Shown here: in pieces, positions 2,579 to 23,120 of the stretch
Layout: each line of letters begins with the position of its first letter
How positions within the stretch are numbered: position 1 is the stretch's first letter
From: a virus
DNA: 23,206 nt
Virus record (IMG/VR): IMGVR_UViG_3300020172_001089
Coordinates: 1 to 23,206 of that record
Reading direction: 5' to 3' (one strand)
The notes under the pieces: model-generated
Told to the model about the DNA's origin: nothing
Seen by the model: only the letters and a program-made list of their open reading frames with translations
The model's database searches: none
Position numbers and translations under genes: made by a program

Positions 2579-2988
2579 ATTTTTACCTCTACTACTACGT
2601 AGCGTTCAGCAAACCCGTACCTCTTCCACAGCCGCGCAATGGACTCCCGCGCTGCACCTTGAATCTTCGTTGCGCCCATGCTGCGCAGAAGCGTTTTCAA
2701 CTGCTCAAACGTGTCGTCGTTTGAGATCAACTTGCCGCCAATCGCTGTGACAAACGCCACCCGGTCGTTGGGGTAGTTCAAGAAAGACACTGTAGCTGCG
2801 CCGTGCACTTTGGTCTCTTCGTCAGCGGCCACTAACAACACCCACTGCCCCTGCGTTGCGTACATCTTGATCTGGTCAAGCGTGTAGTCATCCCCGCCGT
2901 ACTTGTTTGCTGAAGCAATGAACTCCTCCACCAGCGGCCAAGTCTGGGCAACAAACTGCTGCGGTACGTGCTGGACAGTGAGCGTCAT
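2575..2988 (-). CDS. GNAT-fold-like small protein (possible T7 gp13-like virion protein)
   Basis: This 137-residue protein overlaps both neighbours by four bases (ATGA at both ends), so it is translationally coupled. No clear Shine-Dalgarno precedes its ATG. The layout resembles a GNAT acetyltransferase: an N-terminal helix (17-27), a central strand pair (HGAATVSFLNYPNDRVAFVT, about 62-81), a helix (92-104) and a C-terminal ESIARLWKRYGF (about 116-127), like the ARLYERLGF ending of the family. The acetyl-CoA-binding Q/RxxGxG/A loop is not recognisable, so I infer a structural or degenerate member. T7 gp13 occupies a comparable place, just before the internal core genes. A working acetyltransferase is possible but unsupported. 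Confidence 0.75.
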   Translation of the reverse strand: MTLTVQHVPQQFVAQTWPLVEEFIASANKYGGDDYTLDQIKMYATQGQWVLLVAADEETKVHGAATVSFLNYPNDRVAFVTAIGGKLISNDDTFEQLKTLLRSMGATKIQGAARESIARLWKRYGFAERYVVVEVKI

Positions 2989-4106
2989 GCGGGCATGTAT
3001 TTGTCAGGGTTGATCTGTTTGGCCTGGGACTTTTTGCCCGTTCTGGCAGCGCGAACCCTGTCCATCATCTTGTACAACTGTTTGGCCCCAGCGTCAGATG
3101 AGCCGTTGCCCAGGTGGGAGACCACATCGGCAGAAACCACAAACTCGTCGTTGGCCAACCGGGCAGGTTGCTTGCCTGCAATGGTGGCAGGAATACTGTC
3201 ACTCATGCCGTCTCCGGGGCCTTTGAGCATGCGCCCGCCACGAGCATAGTCAGCATAGCCGCCCAGATCGGACAAACCGCCACCAGCCATGCGCCGGGGT
3301 TGGGGAACCAACGGAGAGTACCTGGATGGGTCGTACTTAAACTTGCTCAACGGCCCTTCGTACTTTTCCTTTTCAGGGGTGCCGTACTTGTTTCCGTCCA
3401 AATAATTTATTCCTTTGACTGCGCCCATAGCGCCCAGGCCGTATTTGGCCATGGTGGGGAGCTTGTCCCAAGCCTGGGTCATTTGGTCAATAAGCCCTTT
3501 TTCATCGCTTCGACCGCTCATGGTTGGGTCACCAACACGCATAGCTTTGGACATGGCATCATTAAAATTAACGCCCCCCGGTGTGGGGTATGGGCTGGCA
3601 GGCCCCATTGTCAAATCAGGGGAAGCCTCTGCCAACTTAGAAATTGCTGCATTGGGATCAACCGTTTGCGCCGCAGACTGTAGCGCTTGCTGCGCAGCGC
3701 CGCCCGCAAAGTCAACTCCTGGGTTGCCCATCATTTGTGCAATATTGTTTCCTTGCCCCAAGCCGGGTTGGTACAAGTTAGCGCCTGTTTCCAATGCGGA
3801 AGGCACTACCCCTGGCTGCATAGCCGCCTGTGTAGCAGAGGCAATAGCGGGATTGAGCGCGGCTGTGCCAAACTCGCCTTCCAGCAACGGCGTTAAGTTA
3901 GCCAGCCCGCCAGACCCGCCAGCAAGCCCCGCCCCTTCTAGCGCACCGATACCGCCAGCAGCACTGCTCAAACCCGCAAGTTCTCCTGCGCCTGCAAGAG
4001 CACCAATGCCGCCAGCAAGTTCAGCTCCGCCCACCGCTGCCCCGGCAATTTCACTTGCCATTACTGCTTCAAGAAGCGCTGCTTCGCCTACTCCGCCTCC
4101 AGCCAT
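2985..4106 (-). CDS. Ala/Gly-rich virion protein with C-terminal GPGDGMSDSIPA domain
   Basis: The protein has 373 residues. It starts at the ATG at 4106, with AGGAG seven bases upstream. Residues 1-70 are almost entirely Ala, Gly, Leu and Ile, with two related copies of GGIGALxGAG (32-41 and 51-60). This could form membrane-active or tightly packed helices. Residues 273-292 contain MAGGGLSDLGGYADYARGG, and residues 297-353 contain GPGDGMSDSIPATIAGKQPA followed by an EFVVSADVVSHLGNGSSDAG segment and a basic helix. From memory, this C-terminal block is very common in uncultured aquatic phage proteins and has no assigned function. The place between the tail hub and GNAT-like genes resembles that of T7 gp14, so an ejected membrane-spanning protein is a reasonable inference. 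Confidence 0.85.
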   Translation of the reverse strand: MAGGGVGEAALLEAVMASEIAGAAVGGAELAGGIGALAGAGELAGLSSAAGGIGALEGAGLAGGSGGLANLTPLLEGEFGTAALNPAIASATQAAMQPGVVPSALETGANLYQPGLGQGNNIAQMMGNPGVDFAGGAAQQALQSAAQTVDPNAAISKLAEASPDLTMGPASPYPTPGGVNFNDAMSKAMRVGDPTMSGRSDEKGLIDQMTQAWDKLPTMAKYGLGAMGAVKGINYLDGNKYGTPEKEKYEGPLSKFKYDPSRYSPLVPQPRRMAGGGLSDLGGYADYARGGRMLKGPGDGMSDSIPATIAGKQPARLANDEFVVSADVVSHLGNGSSDAGAKQLYKMMDRVRAARTGKKSQAKQINPDKYMPA

Positions 4107-17601: not shown

Positions 17602-18581
17602 CAGCGAACCCCGCTATTTTGCGGCAGGGGCGACTGCCGATACTGGCCACTGCGGTACGCATCGCTGCGCTCCAGGCCATCCCCCAGACGCTGGGCCAAT
17701 GCAAGTGCTTCTTTGTACTTGGCATCGTACAAACCAATCAAGTCTTGCTCACCCTTCATGAAGGTGTATGCCTCAACCAAAGACCCATACAGCAACACGC
17801 TGTCAAAGTTGTCGCCCAGCCAAGTGCGTCCATTTGCGTTGTCAACTGCTGTAACTGTGATTGTGAAAAGAGTGCCTGTGCCGCCAACATAAGAAGCGCT
17901 TGTCGTCAGAACGTCACCAACAACATAGTACGCACCGCCGTTAACAAGGGTTACGCTTGTAACAATGTTGCCAGACACCACGATAGTAGCAGCGGCTGAA
18001 TTCCCCGTGCCACCGGTTAATGGTACGTTGTAATAAGTTCCGTTAGTCAAGCTACTACCAGTGGTAGTAATTGACGCCGCCGTTGCTACGCCTTGAATAA
18101 TTGATTGCGGGTAATAGTAGTAGTGCAACTCAACGTCATAGACCGCATCAGGTGTAGGGCCAAGAATGAACGACAGCTCGTTGGTAATTACAGGGGACGC
18201 ATCGTTTGAAGTTGTTGGGCCAAACAGTGCGTAGTACTTGGGCGTCGCCGTGTCCGTGGCTTTGGGGTACGCCTGACGAATGAAGTTCACGTCCTTGTTG
18301 AGCAAGAATTCTTGCCCGTCAGCAGTGACGACTGCCAACGAAAACGTGGAAAGAAAGTCTGCCGGGCACGACAAATACTTGTTGCCCGTAGACGTTACCC
18401 CCGTCACGTTTTTACGCAGCGAGGGGAACTGCACCGAGTTGTATATACGTTGTTCAGCCTGCGTGATGAAAGTATTGATCTGTGTCTGAGCAGACACAGT
18501 ACTCCCACTAGCAAGGTATACAGCCGGAAACTGATTTTCGGTGTATGACTGAATTGCGTTATACAAATCGGTGTAGTTCAT
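17601..18581 (-). CDS. Conserved virion/adaptor-like protein with an inserted Gly-rich beta module
   Basis: The product has 326 residues and starts at the ATG at 18581, overlapping the previous stop as ATGA. Conserved segments are FITQAEQRIYNSVQFPSLRK, KYLSCPADFLSTFSLAVV, EFLLNKDVNFIRQAYP, DVELHYYYYPQSI and TWLGDNFDSVLLYGSLVEAY followed by a YDAKYKEAL helix. From memory, this family is widespread in aquatic phages, close to head-tail adaptor genes, and its helix-strand layout is adaptor-like. I rate the exact function as open. Residues about 166-250 (VPLTGGTGNSAAATIVVSG to GGTGTLFTITVTAV) are an insert that separates YYYYPQSI from TWLGDN, which in relatives as I recall them lie close together. 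Confidence 0.85.
   Translation of the reverse strand: MNYTDLYNAIQSYTENQFPAVYLASGSTVSAQTQINTFITQAEQRIYNSVQFPSLRKNVTGVTSTGNKYLSCPADFLSTFSLAVVTADGQEFLLNKDVNFIRQAYPKATDTATPKYYALFGPTTSNDASPVITNELSFILGPTPDAVYDVELHYYYYPQSIIQGVATAASITTTGSSLTNGTYYNVPLTGGTGNSAAATIVVSGNIVTSVTLVNGGAYYVVGDVLTTSASYVGGTGTLFTITVTAVDNANGRTWLGDNFDSVLLYGSLVEAYTFMKGEQDLIGLYDAKYKEALALAQRLGDGLERSDAYRSGQYRQSPLPQNSGVR
17832..18086 (-). other. Gly-rich beta insertion module in the conserved virion/adaptor-like gene
   Basis: Residues about 166-250 contain GTYYNVPLTGGTGNSAAATI, VTSVTLVNGGAYYVVGDVLT and GGTGTLFTITVTAV. This differs from the modules in the hub and adaptor genes and looks like another inserted beta domain. Confidence 0.65.
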
Positions 18582-18778
18582 GCCATCGGGCCTCGGGCCA
18601 TTTTGCCTTTGGTCTGCGCTTTACCGCCACGCACCACAATACCAGAGGTCTTCATGGGCGGGTAGTCTTGACTGCGCGTATTGGCCACGGCCACGTTTGC
18701 TTTGCGCATCGTCTCTTTGGCTGGCTCTTCGCCAACAATCACGTTGGCTACTTTGGTTGCTTGCTTGTAGGTCGCCAT
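18578..18778 (-). CDS. Small basic protein ending in TKGKMARGPMA
   Basis: The product has 66 residues: MATYKQATKVANVIVGEEPA, then a basic middle and SGIVVRGGKAQTKGKMARGP. I chose the ATG at 18778, directly after the previous stop, with GGGGG upstream. A start six codons earlier would lie inside the previous gene. From memory, the ending (I)(V)xRGxGAxTKGxxARGPMA recurs in small phage proteins. It is Lys/Arg-rich with few acidic residues in the second half. Function unknown; DNA binding or virion association is possible. Confidence 0.8.
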   Translation of the reverse strand: MATYKQATKVANVIVGEEPAKETMRKANVAVANTRSQDYPPMKTSGIVVRGGKAQTKGKMARGPMA

Positions 18779-18779
18779 A

Positions 18780-18971
18780 TCAGCCCCCACGACCAACGCT
18801 GCGCTGGTTCATGATTTTGGCCTTGTTGCGCCCGTATTTCAGCATGTCGCTGTTGGTCTTGCCGCCAGCTCTGAGCTTGGTCATAGGCTTGCCAGGGTGC
18901 AGCTTTTTCTCATGCTTATGCACCGCGCCTGCGATCATTTTCTTGTCTTGTGCCAAGTCTTTCTTGTCCAT
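18780..18971 (-). CDS. Small Lys-rich protein (MDKKDLAQDKKMI family)
   Basis: The product has 63 residues, with a strong AAGGAG six bases before the ATG. It contains MDKKDLAQDKKMIAGAVHKH, HPGKPMTKLRAGGKTNSDML and KYGRNKAKIMNQRS. It is rich in Lys and Arg with a helical N-terminus. From memory, close relatives occur in many aquatic phage structural operons. Function unknown. The strong ribosome binding site suggests high expression, as expected for a virion-associated or DNA-binding protein. Confidence 0.82.
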   Translation of the reverse strand: MDKKDLAQDKKMIAGAVHKHEKKLHPGKPMTKLRAGGKTNSDMLKYGRNKAKIMNQRSVGRGG

Positions 18972-18981
18972 CTTCGACTCC

Positions 18982-19410
18982 TTATGTCGTTGCTACCGTA
19001 ACTGTACCCAATTGCACGCTCAAAACCAAGTTATTTGGTGTCAAAGCTGCATCAAAAAATTCTGAACCCCCGACGGGTGTCCAGCCCCACTGAAAAATTC
19101 TGCTGCCCCCGCTGAGAATCCCCTGGGCATCAGCCGCCGAACTGTTGGTCAGTTCAATTTGCAAACCGGTCCGACCAGACACTTTGTAGCTGAGATCAGG
19201 CCGGGGGTCGCGTATCCCTTGCGGGTCATCCACCGGGTACATACCCAGTTGCAACTGCGGCTGATCCGGGTCCCAACACTGGGGGCACACCTTGAGATCA
19301 TATACCTTGGTCTTGACAACTTCTTTGCGCAGCGTGGTCAACTTGAAGCGAAAACCACAACGGTCACACTCCGCAATCGAGTTCTTGCCAGACGCAAACC
19401 TATTGCCCAT
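18982..19410 (-). CDS. CxxC zinc-ribbon protein with C-terminal beta domain
   Basis: The product has 142 residues. I chose the ATG at 19410 (MGNRFASGKNSIAECDRCGF), which overlaps the previous stop as TAATG. Two pairs of cysteines (C15/C18 and C42/C45) should bind one zinc ion. They are followed by the conserved CWDPDQPQLQLGMYPVDDPQ segment. A beta-rich C-terminal part (about 75-142) follows. From memory, this ribbon is a frequent neighbour of the gp11-like adaptor gene in aquatic phages. Its role is unknown; protein-protein contact in the neck is one possibility, DNA binding another. Confidence 0.87.
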   Translation of the reverse strand: MGNRFASGKNSIAECDRCGFRFKLTTLRKEVVKTKVYDLKVCPQCWDPDQPQLQLGMYPVDDPQGIRDPRPDLSYKVSGRTGLQIELTNSSAADAQGILSGGSRIFQWGWTPVGGSEFFDAALTPNNLVLSVQLGTVTVATT

Positions 19411-20351
19411 TAAGTGCCACCCCCAATGAACATCTGCCGGGGCACAAGCCGCAGAGCTGCACGTTCTTGGTCTTCGTCCGCAGCCGTCATCCAAGCCTCG
19501 TCATACTGCTGTTTGAGCACCCCCAGGCGCTCCATGCCACCGGGCACTTTGAGCGCAATGTAGTAGGCCAGTCCTGCTGCCATGCAGGGGATGAAGCGGA
19601 AAGGCACGTCCATGACGTTCACGCCACCGCCAGCATCCTGCACCCGGCGCATGCGCCAGTAGACAAACTGATAGGTCTGGGAGCCGTCAGGTGTGGGCCA
19701 CACAGTGACACGGGGGGCATTGTTGACGCGGATAGGGTTACCCGCCGCAGGGGTCTGCTGAGTCGTGCCGATCTGTGCACGGAACACGTTACTAAGGGTA
19801 TTGCCTGAGATGTAGTTGTAGAACACAGTCTCTGTGCCGCCAGCAGTCACGATGTCCACGTACCCAATGGCCGGGAGCCCCACAACCGAGTTCAACGTGA
19901 TCGTTGCCGCGGTCAAGTCTTGGGACACAAACGTCGAAGCGGTGGTAGCAATCTGCCCGTCCAAGCGCTGATACCAGACCTGGATGGGCCGGGCCTGATT
20001 GAGCTTGTTGGGGATGGTTGCGTAGGTGGACACGCTGATGCGCGTGATCGTCAAATCGGCTTGGTTGGCCAGGATGTTTGCATTGGTGCGGATCACATGA
20101 TCCAGCAAATCCACGGTGTCTGTTGGGACGGCGTAGGTGTTCAGCCCTTGCGTCAGGGTGATCGTGCCCTGCTCAAACGTCCACATATTGATGCCGCGGT
20201 TGGCCCAGTCAGCAAACAGTAAGTTAAGAGACCGACGCGCCGTCTTGAGGTCATAACCCGTGCGCATCTCTGAACCCGCACGTTCAAACGCCTCCTCGAC
20301 CAACTCGGTGAGGTCAAGGTTAAAGCCTGATTGTCCAGAGGTGACTGCCAT
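19410..20351 (-). CDS. Head-tail adaptor-like protein (T7 gp11 tail tubular A-like)
   Basis: The product has 313 residues and starts at the ATG at 20351. The N-terminal FNLDLTELVEEAFERAGSEM and RTGYDLKTARRSLNLLFADW helices, then NRGINMWTFEQGTITLTQG, are the conserved start of podoviral adaptor proteins. PRVTVWPTPDGSQ, YQFVYWRMRRVQDAG and a C-terminal helical region (RFIPCMAAGLAYYIALKVPG) follow. I infer a dodecameric ring between portal and tail hub. Residues about 133-209 form a beta insert (TAATITLNSVVGLPAIGYVD, TETVFYNYISGNTLSNVFRA) between VWYQRLD and APRVTVWPTP. The insert resembles the duplicated module in the tail hub gene. Confidence 0.88.
   Translation of the reverse strand: MAVTSGQSGFNLDLTELVEEAFERAGSEMRTGYDLKTARRSLNLLFADWANRGINMWTFEQGTITLTQGLNTYAVPTDTVDLLDHVIRTNANILANQADLTITRISVSTYATIPNKLNQARPIQVWYQRLDGQIATTASTFVSQDLTAATITLNSVVGLPAIGYVDIVTAGGTETVFYNYISGNTLSNVFRAQIGTTQQTPAAGNPIRVNNAPRVTVWPTPDGSQTYQFVYWRMRRVQDAGGGVNVMDVPFRFIPCMAAGLAYYIALKVPGGMERLGVLKQQYDEAWMTAADEDQERAALRLVPRQMFIGGGT
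19725..19955 (-). other. Beta insertion module in the adaptor-like gene
   Basis: Residues 133-209 follow the same scheme as the two modules at 5875-6246: a T-x-I-x-(V/L) strand, a hydrophobic strand preceding (E/T)xVxFYNYIS or ExISYSG, then a TL(S/T)xxxRxxxGTT turn and an Ala-containing end. Identity is modest, so common origin is inferred, not proven. Confidence 0.6.
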
Positions 20352-20353
20352 GA

Positions 20354-21511
20354 TTAGAACGGGGCGGAAGTGTAGACGCCGCCTCCTGCATCTGGTGGAG
20401 GGGGTGGCGGAGGGGGTTTAGGCATTGTCAAACCAGGGTCCAGCGGCTGTGGGGCCACGACCGGGGGACGGTATGACGGAGGCTGCAAATACTGCTGCAA
20501 CGCATCCAGGCCACCGTACTGCTGGCGCTGTTGTTGCCCAAATTGGGCTTGCTGCTGCATCTGGTTTTGCATCTGCCCGTAGCCGTAGTCTTGTTGGGGC
20601 ATTTGTCGCCCGTACCCACCACGACCACCAAAGCCACCGCCCATGCGACCGCCAAACGCACCACGACCGCCGCCGTAGCCGCCACGACCGTAGTCAGGCA
20701 TGCCCATTCTGTTGTCGATGCGCTGATTGCCGTAAGTTCCGGGGGTATACAGGGTCAATGCGTCCATCATTCCTGGGTCGGGTTGCTGCGGCATCACCGC
20801 AGGCATGGCTCTGAACCCTGTGTCACCCATCTGCCCTTGTTGGGGCTGCTGGAACCCGCGCAGCTTGCCCTGCAAGTCTTGCAACTGCTGAAACATGGGG
20901 GCTTTTTGCATGTACTCGTTCATCTGGCGACCAAGGTCTTGCTCCTGCTTCTGGTACGCCTGGAAGTCCGGGTTGTCCATGTACGCAGGGCGCTGACCCA
21001 TTGGTTGAGGCATTTGGTTGGCAGCACCAAGTTGTCCCATTTGCTGGTGCCGCATGAAGGCTTGTGCTGCTTGCTGGTCAAACGGACCCGGCGTCTGCTG
21101 CCCTTGCTGCTGACCAAAACTGTTTCTATAGTTCTGATAGGCTTGTTGGTCTTGTTGCAACTGTTGCTCAGGAGAACGCATCGCCTGATCTTGCGTACGT
21201 GGCGTCGCACGATATTGCTCAAAGGATTGGGGTTGATTGGGCTGTTGCTGCTGCCCACCAAACGGGTTCTGCATTGGCTGCATGCCATACGGCTGCTGTT
21301 GCTGCATGCCATACGGACTGCCGCCGCCAAAATCATTTATACCTGGACCAAAGCCGCTTGATCGCTGACCACCGCCCATACCCCCACCAAGATTGTTCAT
21401 GTACGGCTGCGCGTAGGAAGGGACGCCCCCGCCCGGCTGCGCACCTGCGTTGCCCATGGGTTGTTGCCCCATCCCGCCCGAACCGCCTGCACTGCCTGCG
21501 CCACCACTCAT
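20354..21511 (-). CDS. Gly/Gln-rich, mostly disordered protein with RGG patch
   Basis: The product has 385 residues, starting at the ATG at 21511 (ATGA overlap). It is dominated by Gln, Gly, Met, Pro and Tyr. Residues 1-66 are Gly-rich and residues 67-170 Gln-rich. A short helix-like region spans 180-220 (FQAYQKQEQDLGRQMNEYMQ). Residues 275-302 are an RGG-type patch (GRGGYGGGRGAFGGRMGGGF). Residues 303-345 are Gln/Tyr-rich, and 366-373 are eight consecutive Pro. I do not recognise a family. It lies between small basic genes and the adaptor. The composition is like nucleic-acid-binding prion-like proteins, but this could equally be a flexible virion or scaffold protein. Confidence 0.85.
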   Translation of the reverse strand: MSGGAGSAGGSGGMGQQPMGNAGAQPGGGVPSYAQPYMNNLGGGMGGGQRSSGFGPGINDFGGGSPYGMQQQQPYGMQPMQNPFGGQQQQPNQPQSFEQYRATPRTQDQAMRSPEQQLQQDQQAYQNYRNSFGQQQGQQTPGPFDQQAAQAFMRHQQMGQLGAANQMPQPMGQRPAYMDNPDFQAYQKQEQDLGRQMNEYMQKAPMFQQLQDLQGKLRGFQQPQQGQMGDTGFRAMPAVMPQQPDPGMMDALTLYTPGTYGNQRIDNRMGMPDYGRGGYGGGRGAFGGRMGGGFGGRGGYGRQMPQQDYGYGQMQNQMQQQAQFGQQQRQQYGGLDALQQYLQPPSYRPPVVAPQPLDPGLTMPKPPPPPPPPDAGGGVYTSAPF

Positions 21512-21744
21512 GATCTGTACCCCGCTGTTTTCTTTGCGATGCTTTTGGGTTGCGCCACAAACTGTTTACCCGCCGCCTTGCCTGCACGTTTTGCCCGCGT
21601 TGTCGCAGCATACTCGGCAGGACTCAGGCTCTTGATCGCCGCTTCAGGCAAGTACCGCTCCCCCGTCTTGGACGAAGGCTTCCCCGACTTGGTACGCCAT
21701 TTCTGGTCGCCCCAATTTTTCAGGGAAGTCTGCGGTGCTTTCAA
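21508..21744 (-). CDS. Small basic protein (WRTKSGKPS...GERYLP family), TTG start
   Basis: The product has 78 residues. It starts at TTG (21744), which overlaps the previous stop as TTGA. There is no ATG in frame before its conserved core, and GGGGG lies about nine bases upstream. Key segments are NWGDQKWRTKSGKPSSKTGE, RYLPEAAIKSLSPAEYAATT and KQFVAQPKSIAKKTAG. From memory this is a phage domain of unknown function (I believe DUF5872), which also appears in some large eukaryotic viruses. It is strongly positive. A virion or DNA-binding role is inferred. Confidence 0.83.
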   Translation of the reverse strand: MKAPQTSLKNWGDQKWRTKSGKPSSKTGERYLPEAAIKSLSPAEYAATTRAKRAGKAAGKQFVAQPKSIAKKTAGYRS

Positions 21745-22016
21745 TCGCGGTAGCCCCCGCCAGCAGCCTTGTACTTCTTGGCTACCAACTGTGCTTTACG
21801 AGCAGACCACTGACCTGCGCCAGTGCCGTGGGTTGCCGCTGCCTTCACCTGGGAGACGATCTTCTTGCGAAGACCGGGCTTGGTGTAATTGCCAGCAGCA
21901 TTCACCGTTCCACCTTCTTTGTACTCAGTGAAATCGGTGTCATCCCGGCGCTTCTTACGCTTGGCTCCGGGCATTTTGGAGGGGTTGATGTCCCCCATCC
22001 CACGGCTGGCAATCAT
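21741..22016 (-). CDS. Small basic protein (SRGMGDINPSKMPGAKRKKR)
   Basis: The product has 91 residues. I chose the ATG at 22016, one base after the previous stop; a second ATG six codons later is possible. It begins MIASRGMGDINPSKMPGAKR, with a KRKKRR cluster at 19-24, then TEYKEGGTVNAAGNYTKPGL, a RKKIVSQVKAA helix, GTGAGQWSARKAQLVAKKYK and an AAGGGYRD end. From memory, the MASRGMGxINPSKMPxxKxxKRKD start is common in aquatic phage structural regions. Highly basic and probably nucleic-acid-binding; the function is not known to me. Confidence 0.83.
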   Translation of the reverse strand: MIASRGMGDINPSKMPGAKRKKRRDDTDFTEYKEGGTVNAAGNYTKPGLRKKIVSQVKAAATHGTGAGQWSARKAQLVAKKYKAAGGGYRD

Positions 22017-22017
22017 C

Positions 22018-22383
22018 TCAGCACTTTCCGCCAGACTTCATGCCCAGGGGCTTGGAGCCAGCCATCTTGACCATCGTGCCCTTGGTTTTACCCTTGGAAG
22101 CGATGCCGTCACGGCTGGGGGCACCAGTTTTGACGCTGCCCATCTTGGCGTTGGTGATGCCACCGGACGCCATTTTCTTTGTGCCCATTGCTTTCTTTTT
22201 AGCAATCATTTCCATGAAAGGGTTTGCTTTAGCCATATCACCACCTCTTTTAAAAGACTTGCCTTTGTCGGCGTTGCTGAAATCTTTGCCCACGGATTGT
22301 GGGACTCCTACCTTCTTGGCAAACGATGGGTTGTGGGCCACCGCAGCCATGAAATTGTGCTGTTTCTTACTTGTTGACGGCAT
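22018..22383 (-). CDS. Small basic protein (SKKQHNFMAAVAHNPSFAKKVG)
   Basis: The product has 121 residues. It starts at the ATG at 22383, overlapping the previous gene by 17 bases. Residues 4-38 form a conserved helical segment (TSKKQHNFMAAVAHNPSFAK, then GVPQSVGKDF). The rest is Lys/Gly/Met-rich with MASGGITNAK (71-80) and DGIASKGKTKGT (92-103). From memory, the N-terminal segment is a recurrent small domain in aquatic phages. The GI-(A)xKGKTKG motif resembles the GIVVRGGKAQTKG stretch in the protein encoded at 18578-18778. Function unknown; strongly positive. Confidence 0.83.
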   Translation of the reverse strand: MPSTSKKQHNFMAAVAHNPSFAKKVGVPQSVGKDFSNADKGKSFKRGGDMAKANPFMEMIAKKKAMGTKKMASGGITNAKMGSVKTGAPSRDGIASKGKTKGTMVKMAGSKPLGMKSGGKC

Positions 22384-22555
22384 CTTTATGTGCCCACCGT
22401 TGTACGGTATCAGTCTCCCAGATGCGGATAACCATCCACACGATGGTCAACACGCCGCCAATAAGCGTTACCACGGGCGTCATCCACCCTAAGAAACCCC
22501 CAAGGCCCATTACTACGGCAGCGCCGTCAGTCATTGTTTTTACGTCATGGTTCAT
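22367..22555 (-). CDS. Short holin-like membrane protein
   Basis: The product has 62 residues: a short polar start (MNHDVKTMTDG), a hydrophobic stretch from about 11 to 44 with a Gly/Pro break (AAVVMGLGGFLGWMTPVVTL, then IGGVLTIVWMVIRIW), and a charged end (RWAHKDAVNK). This fits two short membrane helices with a tight turn, as in class II holins such as T7 gp17.5, or one long helix. It lies far from the endolysin gene, inside a run of basic protein genes, so either it is a second holin or it has another membrane role. GGAAG is found about nine bases before the ATG. Confidence 0.78.
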   Translation of the reverse strand: MNHDVKTMTDGAAVVMGLGGFLGWMTPVVTLIGGVLTIVWMVIRIWETDTVQRWAHKDAVNK

Positions 22556-22556
22556 G

Positions 22557-22811
22557 TCAGCACTTCCAAGCCCGCAGGCTCTTGTTAATCCGACTGTTTG
22601 GGTCTTTGGCTGTCTTCTCGGAAGTCAGCTTTTTCTTCATCCCAGTCATCCTTGCACAGAAAGAGTCGCGCCTGCTGCCGCCCTCTGGCTGCGGTGCTTT
22701 CAGCCCCGGCTTGCCGGGGTTGGCCTTGTTGTAGGAAGCTCGGCCTTTGGCGTTCAAGCCGCCCTTCTCGGATTTGCCTTCCTTGCGTTGCCATGCAGGT
22801 GACTTAGCCAT
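22557..22811 (-). CDS. Small basic protein (SPAWQRKEGK...SFCARM family)
   Basis: The product has 84 residues: MAKSPAWQRKEGKSEKGGLN, AKGRASYNKANPGKPGLKAP, SRRDSFCARMTGMKKKLTSE, and KDPNSRINKSLRAWKC. From memory this is a phage family of unknown function (I believe DUF6321), with the conserved GGLNxKGRxSYN and RRxSFCARMxGMK segments and a near-terminal Cys. The two conserved Cys could bind metal or form a disulfide. The ATG at 22811 overlaps the preceding gene by eight bases. Net charge is strongly positive. Confidence 0.87.
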   Translation of the reverse strand: MAKSPAWQRKEGKSEKGGLNAKGRASYNKANPGKPGLKAPQPEGGSRRDSFCARMTGMKKKLTSEKTAKDPNSRINKSLRAWKC

Positions 22812-23100
22812 AGAACACCGAGAGACTGGTTAACGAGCCAACGCTCAGCGTCAAATACAGACCCGCAGACGCCAAAATACCTTCGCCGGGGACGATGACA
22901 TACGTGGAGTTGGCTACTGTTTGGCTTGTAATGTCCATCGTAAACAAAACATCGCCTGAAGCACTGCCATTACGAATTTCAAATGTGCACGCGGTGCTTA
23001 TAGCAGGTGTAACAATAAAACCTTTTAGTCGTGTGCGTTCTGCAAAAAACGACCCAGCGGTGCTACGGTGCGCTGATTTAACGTCTGTTTGCATCGTCAT
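22804..23100 (-). CDS. Small beta-rich protein of the virion operon
   Basis: The product has 98 residues. I chose the ATG at 23100 because AGGAG lies seven bases upstream; a TTG two codons earlier is too close to that site. Segments are VKSAHRSTAGSFFAERTRLK, TFEIRNGSASGDVLFTMDIT, TYVIVPGEGILASAGLYLTL and SLSVFYG. It looks like a single beta-sandwich. From memory, similar short proteins (RxKGxxVxxxxSxxxxFxIRNGSASGxVLF ... VxFYG) are found near phage capsid genes. A capsid decoration or structural role is inference. Confidence 0.83.
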   Translation of the reverse strand: MTMQTDVKSAHRSTAGSFFAERTRLKGFIVTPAISTACTFEIRNGSASGDVLFTMDITSQTVANSTYVIVPGEGILASAGLYLTLSVGSLTSLSVFYG

Positions 23101-23120
23101 AATCAATCTCCTTTTTTAAC

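Follow-up and report, generated by a model that had tools for sequence, protein, structure and literature searches.

What are small, strongly basic proteins doing among the virion genes of a phage, where several of them are encoded almost back to back? The question is raised by IMG/VR record IMGVR_UViG_3300020172_001089, a single virus record of 23,206 bases, here called the window and analyzed at its full length. A comparison with phage records turned up no close counterpart of it. A first-pass annotation, made from the sequence alone, had noticed four such proteins placed closely around a short membrane protein and two further ones downstream, and had suggested that they are unrelated, co-packaged proteins that condense DNA or are ejected with it. 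The six open reading frames (ORFs) were confirmed, on the minus strand like all virion genes of the window: B1 (84 aa, 22557..22811), B2 (121 aa, 22018..22383), B3 (91 aa, 21741..22016) and B4 (78 aa from a TTG start, 21508..21744), interrupted by a membrane-type protein of 62 aa (TM, 22367..22555), and a second cluster formed by B6 (63 aa, 18780..18971) and B5 (66 aa, or 72 aa from a TTG start, 18578..18778). As described below, B1 to B4 form a conserved core in which B1 belongs to the family DUF6321 and B3 and B4 are the two halves of DUF5872, and we give a probability of about one half to the reading that the cassette encodes head-morphogenesis proteins which, by analogy with the T4 internal proteins, would bind DNA inside the capsid.

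The basic composition attributed to the six proteins is borne out. They contain 18-27% Lys plus Arg, have isoelectric points of 10.4-10.6 and carry a net charge of +12 to +19 per 100 aa (B1, +19), which makes them the six most basic products of the window's 31 genes; the next highest net charge is +4.6 per 100 residues. B4 shares 4-base overlaps with both of its neighbors, and gaps of 1 base separate B3 from B2 and TM from B1. When the gene order was shuffled, the clustering of the six basic genes among the 31 was mildly unusual (P ~0.016). Composition clustering taken alone is modest evidence, whereas the conservation of the block is strong evidence.

One gene order, running from the capsid gene to the head-tail genes, is kept in at least hundreds of IMG/VR contigs. 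The contigs compared were those among the matches listed in three scans, and their head genes are named by our own reading of the sequences. The order is TerL, portal, scaffold, capsid gene, D100, B1, (TM), B2, B3 and B4, followed by P313, P170, B6, B5 and P326; the succession of major capsid protein (MCP), D100 and B1 was seen in L089 and L174. In the window, the capsid-side border of the block is D100 (22804..23106, minus strand), a neutral protein of 100 aa directly upstream of B1, with which it overlaps by 8 bases, and the head-tail-side border is the downstream virion gene P313 (313 aa, 19410..20351, minus strand). With B4 as the anchor and at least 2.5 kb visible upstream, 47 contigs were informative for the core, and B1 was found in 47/47, B2 in 46/47 and B3 in 47/47, so that the co-occurrence across aquatic phage contigs, named in the first-pass annotation as a check on its proposal, is observed for the core. 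The short membrane-type protein, for which no convincing Pfam or PHROG match was found, is present in 15 of the 47 and is an optional member of the block. B6, B5 and P313 are syntenic in 53, 54 and 54 of 55 informative contigs, respectively.

Selection separates the genes further. The ratio of nonsynonymous to synonymous substitution rates (dN/dS) is 0.105 for B1 and ~0.10 for B3 and B4, comparable to the neighboring 313-aa virion gene (0.10), while it is 0.24 for B2 and ranges from 0.38 to 0.43 for B5 (0.38), B6 (0.41) and the membrane protein. Thus B1, B3 and B4 are under strong purifying selection, B2 is less so, and B5, B6 and the membrane protein are weakly constrained. Because of this contrast and the conservation of the block, we regard B1 to B4 as the core and B5 and B6 as associated. 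No relative of B6 was found among phage isolates, and a profile match between B6 and B2 was set aside as the B6 set is probably contaminated by copies of B2.

B1 is a full-domain member of DUF6321 (PF19846), with residues 12-82 covering positions 1-72 of the 72-position profile (E = 4.5e-19; 69.3 bits against a cut-off of 28.5). The domain is present in 535 isolated phage genomes, mostly of marine cyanophages, and makes up the C-terminal end of long proteins in several PHROG families; no paper on DUF6321 was found in a literature search.

B3 matches phrog_17747 and B4 matches phrog_14910 (E = 9e-37), and the two match the identical 17 records among 50,697 phage records, spanning the HMO-2011, roseophage, pelagiphage and Methylophilales phage lineages. 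Since neither window protein singly has a Pfam match, DUF5872 (PF19197) included, their assignment to this family is drawn from intermediates and fusions. B3-like intermediates match DUF5872 positions 1-38 above the cut-off (E = 1.4e-8 for L452), and an un-iterated seed profile of B3 finds 50 of the 64 intermediates at E<1e-3. The proteins that we call SLR match profile positions 49-99, and a natural B3-B4 fusion of 132 aa (L220) matches positions 2-110 of 116 (E = 3.4e-4), with further natural fusions in L494, L495 and others. These relationships indicate that the N-terminal half of DUF5872 is represented by the C-terminal part of B3 (residues ~37-90) and its C-terminal half by B4, the two standing in the window as adjacent genes. 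Direct profile-profile comparison of B3 with SAY, the cyanophage domain that corresponds to the N-terminal half, failed, and the relation of the two runs through the intermediates and DUF5872; B4 against SLR scored 21.2, weak and slightly above the column-shuffled controls (<=17.3). The first-pass description of the proteins as unrelated and without fold-like similarity consequently fails for B3 and B4, which are naturally fused elsewhere, and its assignment of several of them to families of unknown function holds for DUF6321 and DUF5872, though not in the sense of a random unrelated set. In the literature, a single incidental mention of DUF5872 was found, as an annotation in Chrysochromulina parva virus (PMC12085832). 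The B4 of CRP-13 (136 aa, L237:3551-3958) has an extra glycine/lysine-rich extension at its C-terminus.

B2 carries a domain of the phiKZ165.1 type in its N-terminal 42-45 aa, followed by a lysine/glycine-rich tail. Its first 42 aa are 81% identical to PHIKZ165.1 (hidden Markov model E = 1.3e-23), the same domain is the N-terminus of GAP32_317 and CBB_322, and B2 matches PHROGs 22033 and 25121, both annotated as "virion structural protein". CBB_322 was detected by mass spectrometry in virions of a jumbo phage, with 30 unique peptides and 43.6% coverage (PMC5259590 Table 4). B2 occurs in one to three tandem copies among relatives; where there are two or three, which is often the case (relatives among L005-L233), the copies are diverged, and a B6-like ORF sometimes lies between them.

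AlphaFold2 models of B1 (predicted local distance difference test, pLDDT, 90.6; predicted TM-score 0.69) and of a B3-B4 fusion (pLDDT 86.0) are mostly helical. Because the models are both confident and helical, B1 and B3-B4 are more likely folded domains than disordered proteins of the protamine kind. No solved-structure relative was found for B1, B2 or B3, significant matches in a viral structure library were all to entries without names, and matches of B4 to designed "Cake" proteins, which covered only 12 residues, were treated as chance.

The same genes are found together well outside the clade of the window. B1, B3 and B4 occur jointly in Lederberg, HTVC033P, HTVC035P and MEP401/402; in MEP401/402 they immediately precede TerL. 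B3 accompanies B4 in 77 of 80 MEP-type contigs. In CRP-7 and its relatives, a trio of divergent B1, SAY and SLR lies just before TerL; SAY goes with SLR in 80 of 80 CRP-7-type loci, and DUF6321 is present in 52. Among T4-like cyanophages the order SLR-SAY-DUF6321 is fused in 75 proteins, encoded between the small and large terminase genes (the gp16-gp17 interval), where S-SZBM1 has a DUF6321 protein of 165 aa, and P-SCSP1k has a DUF6321 gene between those for MCP and the tail tubular protein. Judged from these matches, phages that are unrelated to one another carry the trio next to terminase or capsid genes. A further member of the terminase interval, gp137 of S-CREM2, ends in a divergent DUF6321 (E = 5e-7) and was detected in purified virions by 4 unique peptides at 4.1% coverage (PMC10665884 Table 3).

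Relatives are also present in cells. Scanning the genomes of bacteria and archaea gave 71 loci, nearly all with B3 and B4 fused or adjacent, many on phage-like contigs and others not. In one SAR11 family, 11 of 99 genomes have B4 and B3 fused at full length, and several of these genes are flanked by ordinary metabolic genes. In the Micromonospora family the fusion, likewise full-length, is B3-B4 and is followed by an additional C-terminal domain; 7 of 101 genomes have it. The SAR11 (Pelagibacteraceae) gene encodes 138-142 aa with the DUF5872 halves reversed, B4 before B3 (L540:5986-6411, and likewise in L526, L529-L533, L536, L541 and others), and often adjoins a TspO-like gene and an SDR gene. 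Acidobacterial versions of DUF5872 end in K/A/P-rich, histone H1-like tails, the tail of one sphingomonad version matches Rho_N weakly (E = 0.0026), and a SAP-like tail also occurs among the bacterial versions. Short of proof, these tails point to a nucleic-acid-associated role.

The T4 internal proteins have an N-terminal targeting peptide that is cut by the gp21 prohead protease, and are ejected with the DNA (PMC7411985); their lysines contact DNA phosphates (PMC3012670). No N-terminal capsid-targeting sequence was found on the window's basic proteins. Among the cyanophage relatives, the DUF6321 protein of S-CAM1 has a T4-like start, MKSFKELRSDIREAAE, and in S-SZBM1_192 the N-terminus reads MKTFKQYITEA, and RAE stands ahead of GAAW, with which DUF6321 begins. 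Starts of the MKSF/MKTF type were found on 15 ORFs in 503 kb of T4-like loci vs. 2 in ~3,500 kb of other loci, mostly on the ORF neighboring the DUF6321 polyprotein in the same stretch; on most of the DUF6321 polyproteins themselves none was found. In 40 of the 55 different polyprotein contexts, which come from related proteins and are not 55 independent trials, the residue exactly four positions ahead of the first DUF6321 Trp is Glu, against a Glu frequency of 8%; this Glu is usually followed by Gly or Ala, and the neighboring residues vary. Because no EG or EA enrichment was seen across the cyanophage polyproteins overall (1.11 and 1.02), the boundary Glu is the sole ground for a putative cleavage site. 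The S-CREM2 and S-SZBM1 capsid proteins have LLTE-A and ILTE-A near their N-termini; by analogy with T4, this is their presumed maturation site. Next to the small terminase gene, S-SZBM1 also encodes a 707-aa protein (S-SZBM1_194, L570:18253-20376) with a DUF3008-like N-terminus (E = 0.0046) and a SAM-lyase domain (PF23780, E = 6.8e-8) just after a T4-like internal stretch, ITYREFIAEG; a packaged anti-restriction cargo is a possible identity for it.

How, then, might the cassette act? With their genes lying in the part of the operon that separates the MCP gene from the head-tail genes, B1 to B4 would be made late; their dense positive charge could neutralize DNA and aid its compaction during or after packaging, and the proteins would leave with the DNA at infection, when they could also protect or organize the incoming genome. 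For the window's own proteins, it is packaging, DNA binding and ejection that we infer. The first-pass proposal of co-packaged or ejected proteins is in this respect favored by the conserved block, the location beside head or terminase genes, the virion detection of relatives, strong for CBB_322 and weak for S-CREM2 gp137, the T4-style targeting and cleavage features of the T4-like cyanophage versions and the resemblance of bacterial DUF5872 proteins to nucleoid-type proteins, and is abandoned as far as it spoke of an unrelated set. Several observations weigh against a location inside the capsid or against DNA binding there. In the published mass spectrometry of relatives that was consulted, no podovirus member of the cassette is reported in the virion, and S-SZBM1_192 and S-SZBM1_194 are unnamed in that phage's table of detected proteins (PMC9146016). 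The case from S-CREM2 gp137 is weak, as at 4.1% coverage its peptides need not come from DUF6321. Foldseek and VIA-align gave no significant match to a PDB structure or DNA-binding fold for the confident B1 and B3-B4 models, the Rho_N match lies below the Pfam cut-off, and the SAP-like tail is not recognized by Pfam. No prohead protease was recognized in the window or its clade, and the processing logic of the cyanophages is therefore not simply transferable to the window.

Adjacency to terminase equally fits a packaging accessory. Factors that assist packaging or assembly at the terminase, portal or prohead, for example in handling DNA ends, and that are absent from the virion would suit the trio or fusion that abuts terminase in MEP401/402, the CRP-7 type and the cyanophage gp16-gp17 interval; we consider them unlikely, given that the genes of the window clade and of P-SCSP1k follow the capsid gene instead and that mass spectrometry of mature particles detected both S-CREM2 gp137 and CBB_322. 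The T4 internal proteins differ widely among themselves, act against restriction and have only the targeting sequence in common (PMC3012670), and together with the SAM-lyase neighbor in S-SZBM1 they raise the alternative of injected effectors directed, like T4 IPI*, at host defense or machinery, with the charge serving only for riding with the DNA. T4 effectors are fast-changing, however, whereas DUF6321 and DUF5872 are strongly conserved across cyanobacteria, SAR11 and methylotroph hosts, and DUF5872 is also a bacterial chromosomal gene, so that such a role seems rather improbable. More doubtful still are nucleoid-type proteins that act late in the cell, on phage or host DNA, and stay unpackaged: the fused B4-B3 gene among SAR11 housekeeping genes and the DUF5872 of actinobacteria and acidobacteria with DNA-binding-like tails would suit them, but the genes lie within the virion operon and relatives were detected by virion mass spectrometry.

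Beyond the preferred role of capsid-internal DNA binding, we tentatively suggest, as a possibility that we hold to be less likely than not, that DUF6321 and the split DUF5872 constitute a single exchangeable genome-compaction module, found in podophages and T4-like cyanophages, in an algal giant virus and on bacterial chromosomes. Phages would in this case build nucleoid-type proteins into their capsids, encoding them in separate genes or in one polyprotein that is cleaved within the prohead. The parts are known as sequence families; their linkage into one module and its role appear undescribed in the literature searched. Among viruses, proteins of the nucleoid type inside the head have been described chiefly for eukaryotic viruses and for a few large phages. 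The link suggests that small tailed phages may also carry such proteins inside the head, and gives a testable role to very common, unexplained genes of aquatic phages.

Two other features of the window were observed. A 373-aa protein (2985-4106) has a C-terminus, GPGDGMSDSIPATI...DVVSHLGNGSSDAGAKQLYKMMDRVRAARTG, that is also found at the C-terminal end of a MinM2 protein carrying a calcium-binding annotation (profile E = 3.5e-20). A motif (F/Y/L/M)(K/R/A)xGG (FKRGG, YKEGG, LRAGG, YARGG, MKKGG) occurs in three basic and two large proteins (22018-22383, 21741-22016, 18780-18971, 2985-4106 and 779-2578); five were seen vs. 1.3 expected, and as shuffles reached 7 the excess is not clearly significant.

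Compared with known systems, B1 is a full-length, above-cut-off member of Pfam DUF6321, with the difference that it is a free-standing gene in the window and the domain is C-terminal in long proteins of T4-like cyanophages. Pfam DUF5872 is matched by the B3-like intermediates, the SLR proteins and the B3-B4 fusions, whereas the window has two adjacent genes and SAR11 chromosomes have the halves in reverse. With phiKZ165.1, GAP32_317 and CBB_322, the last a virion protein, B2 shares its N-terminal domain, but it continues into a lysine/glycine-rich tail and is not an 800-aa virion protein. The likeness to bacterial nucleoid-associated proteins is one of composition and of DUF5872 tail fusions only, and non-specific DNA binding, which marks those proteins, is a presumed property here. 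The T4 internal proteins IPI-III are a working analogy, with no homology found: the window proteins differ from them in having neither targeting sequence nor recognized prohead protease, yet both are small, basic and, in our reading, proteins of the head, and the cyanophage DUF6321 proteins share with T4 the targeting-type starts and have a Glu before the domain.

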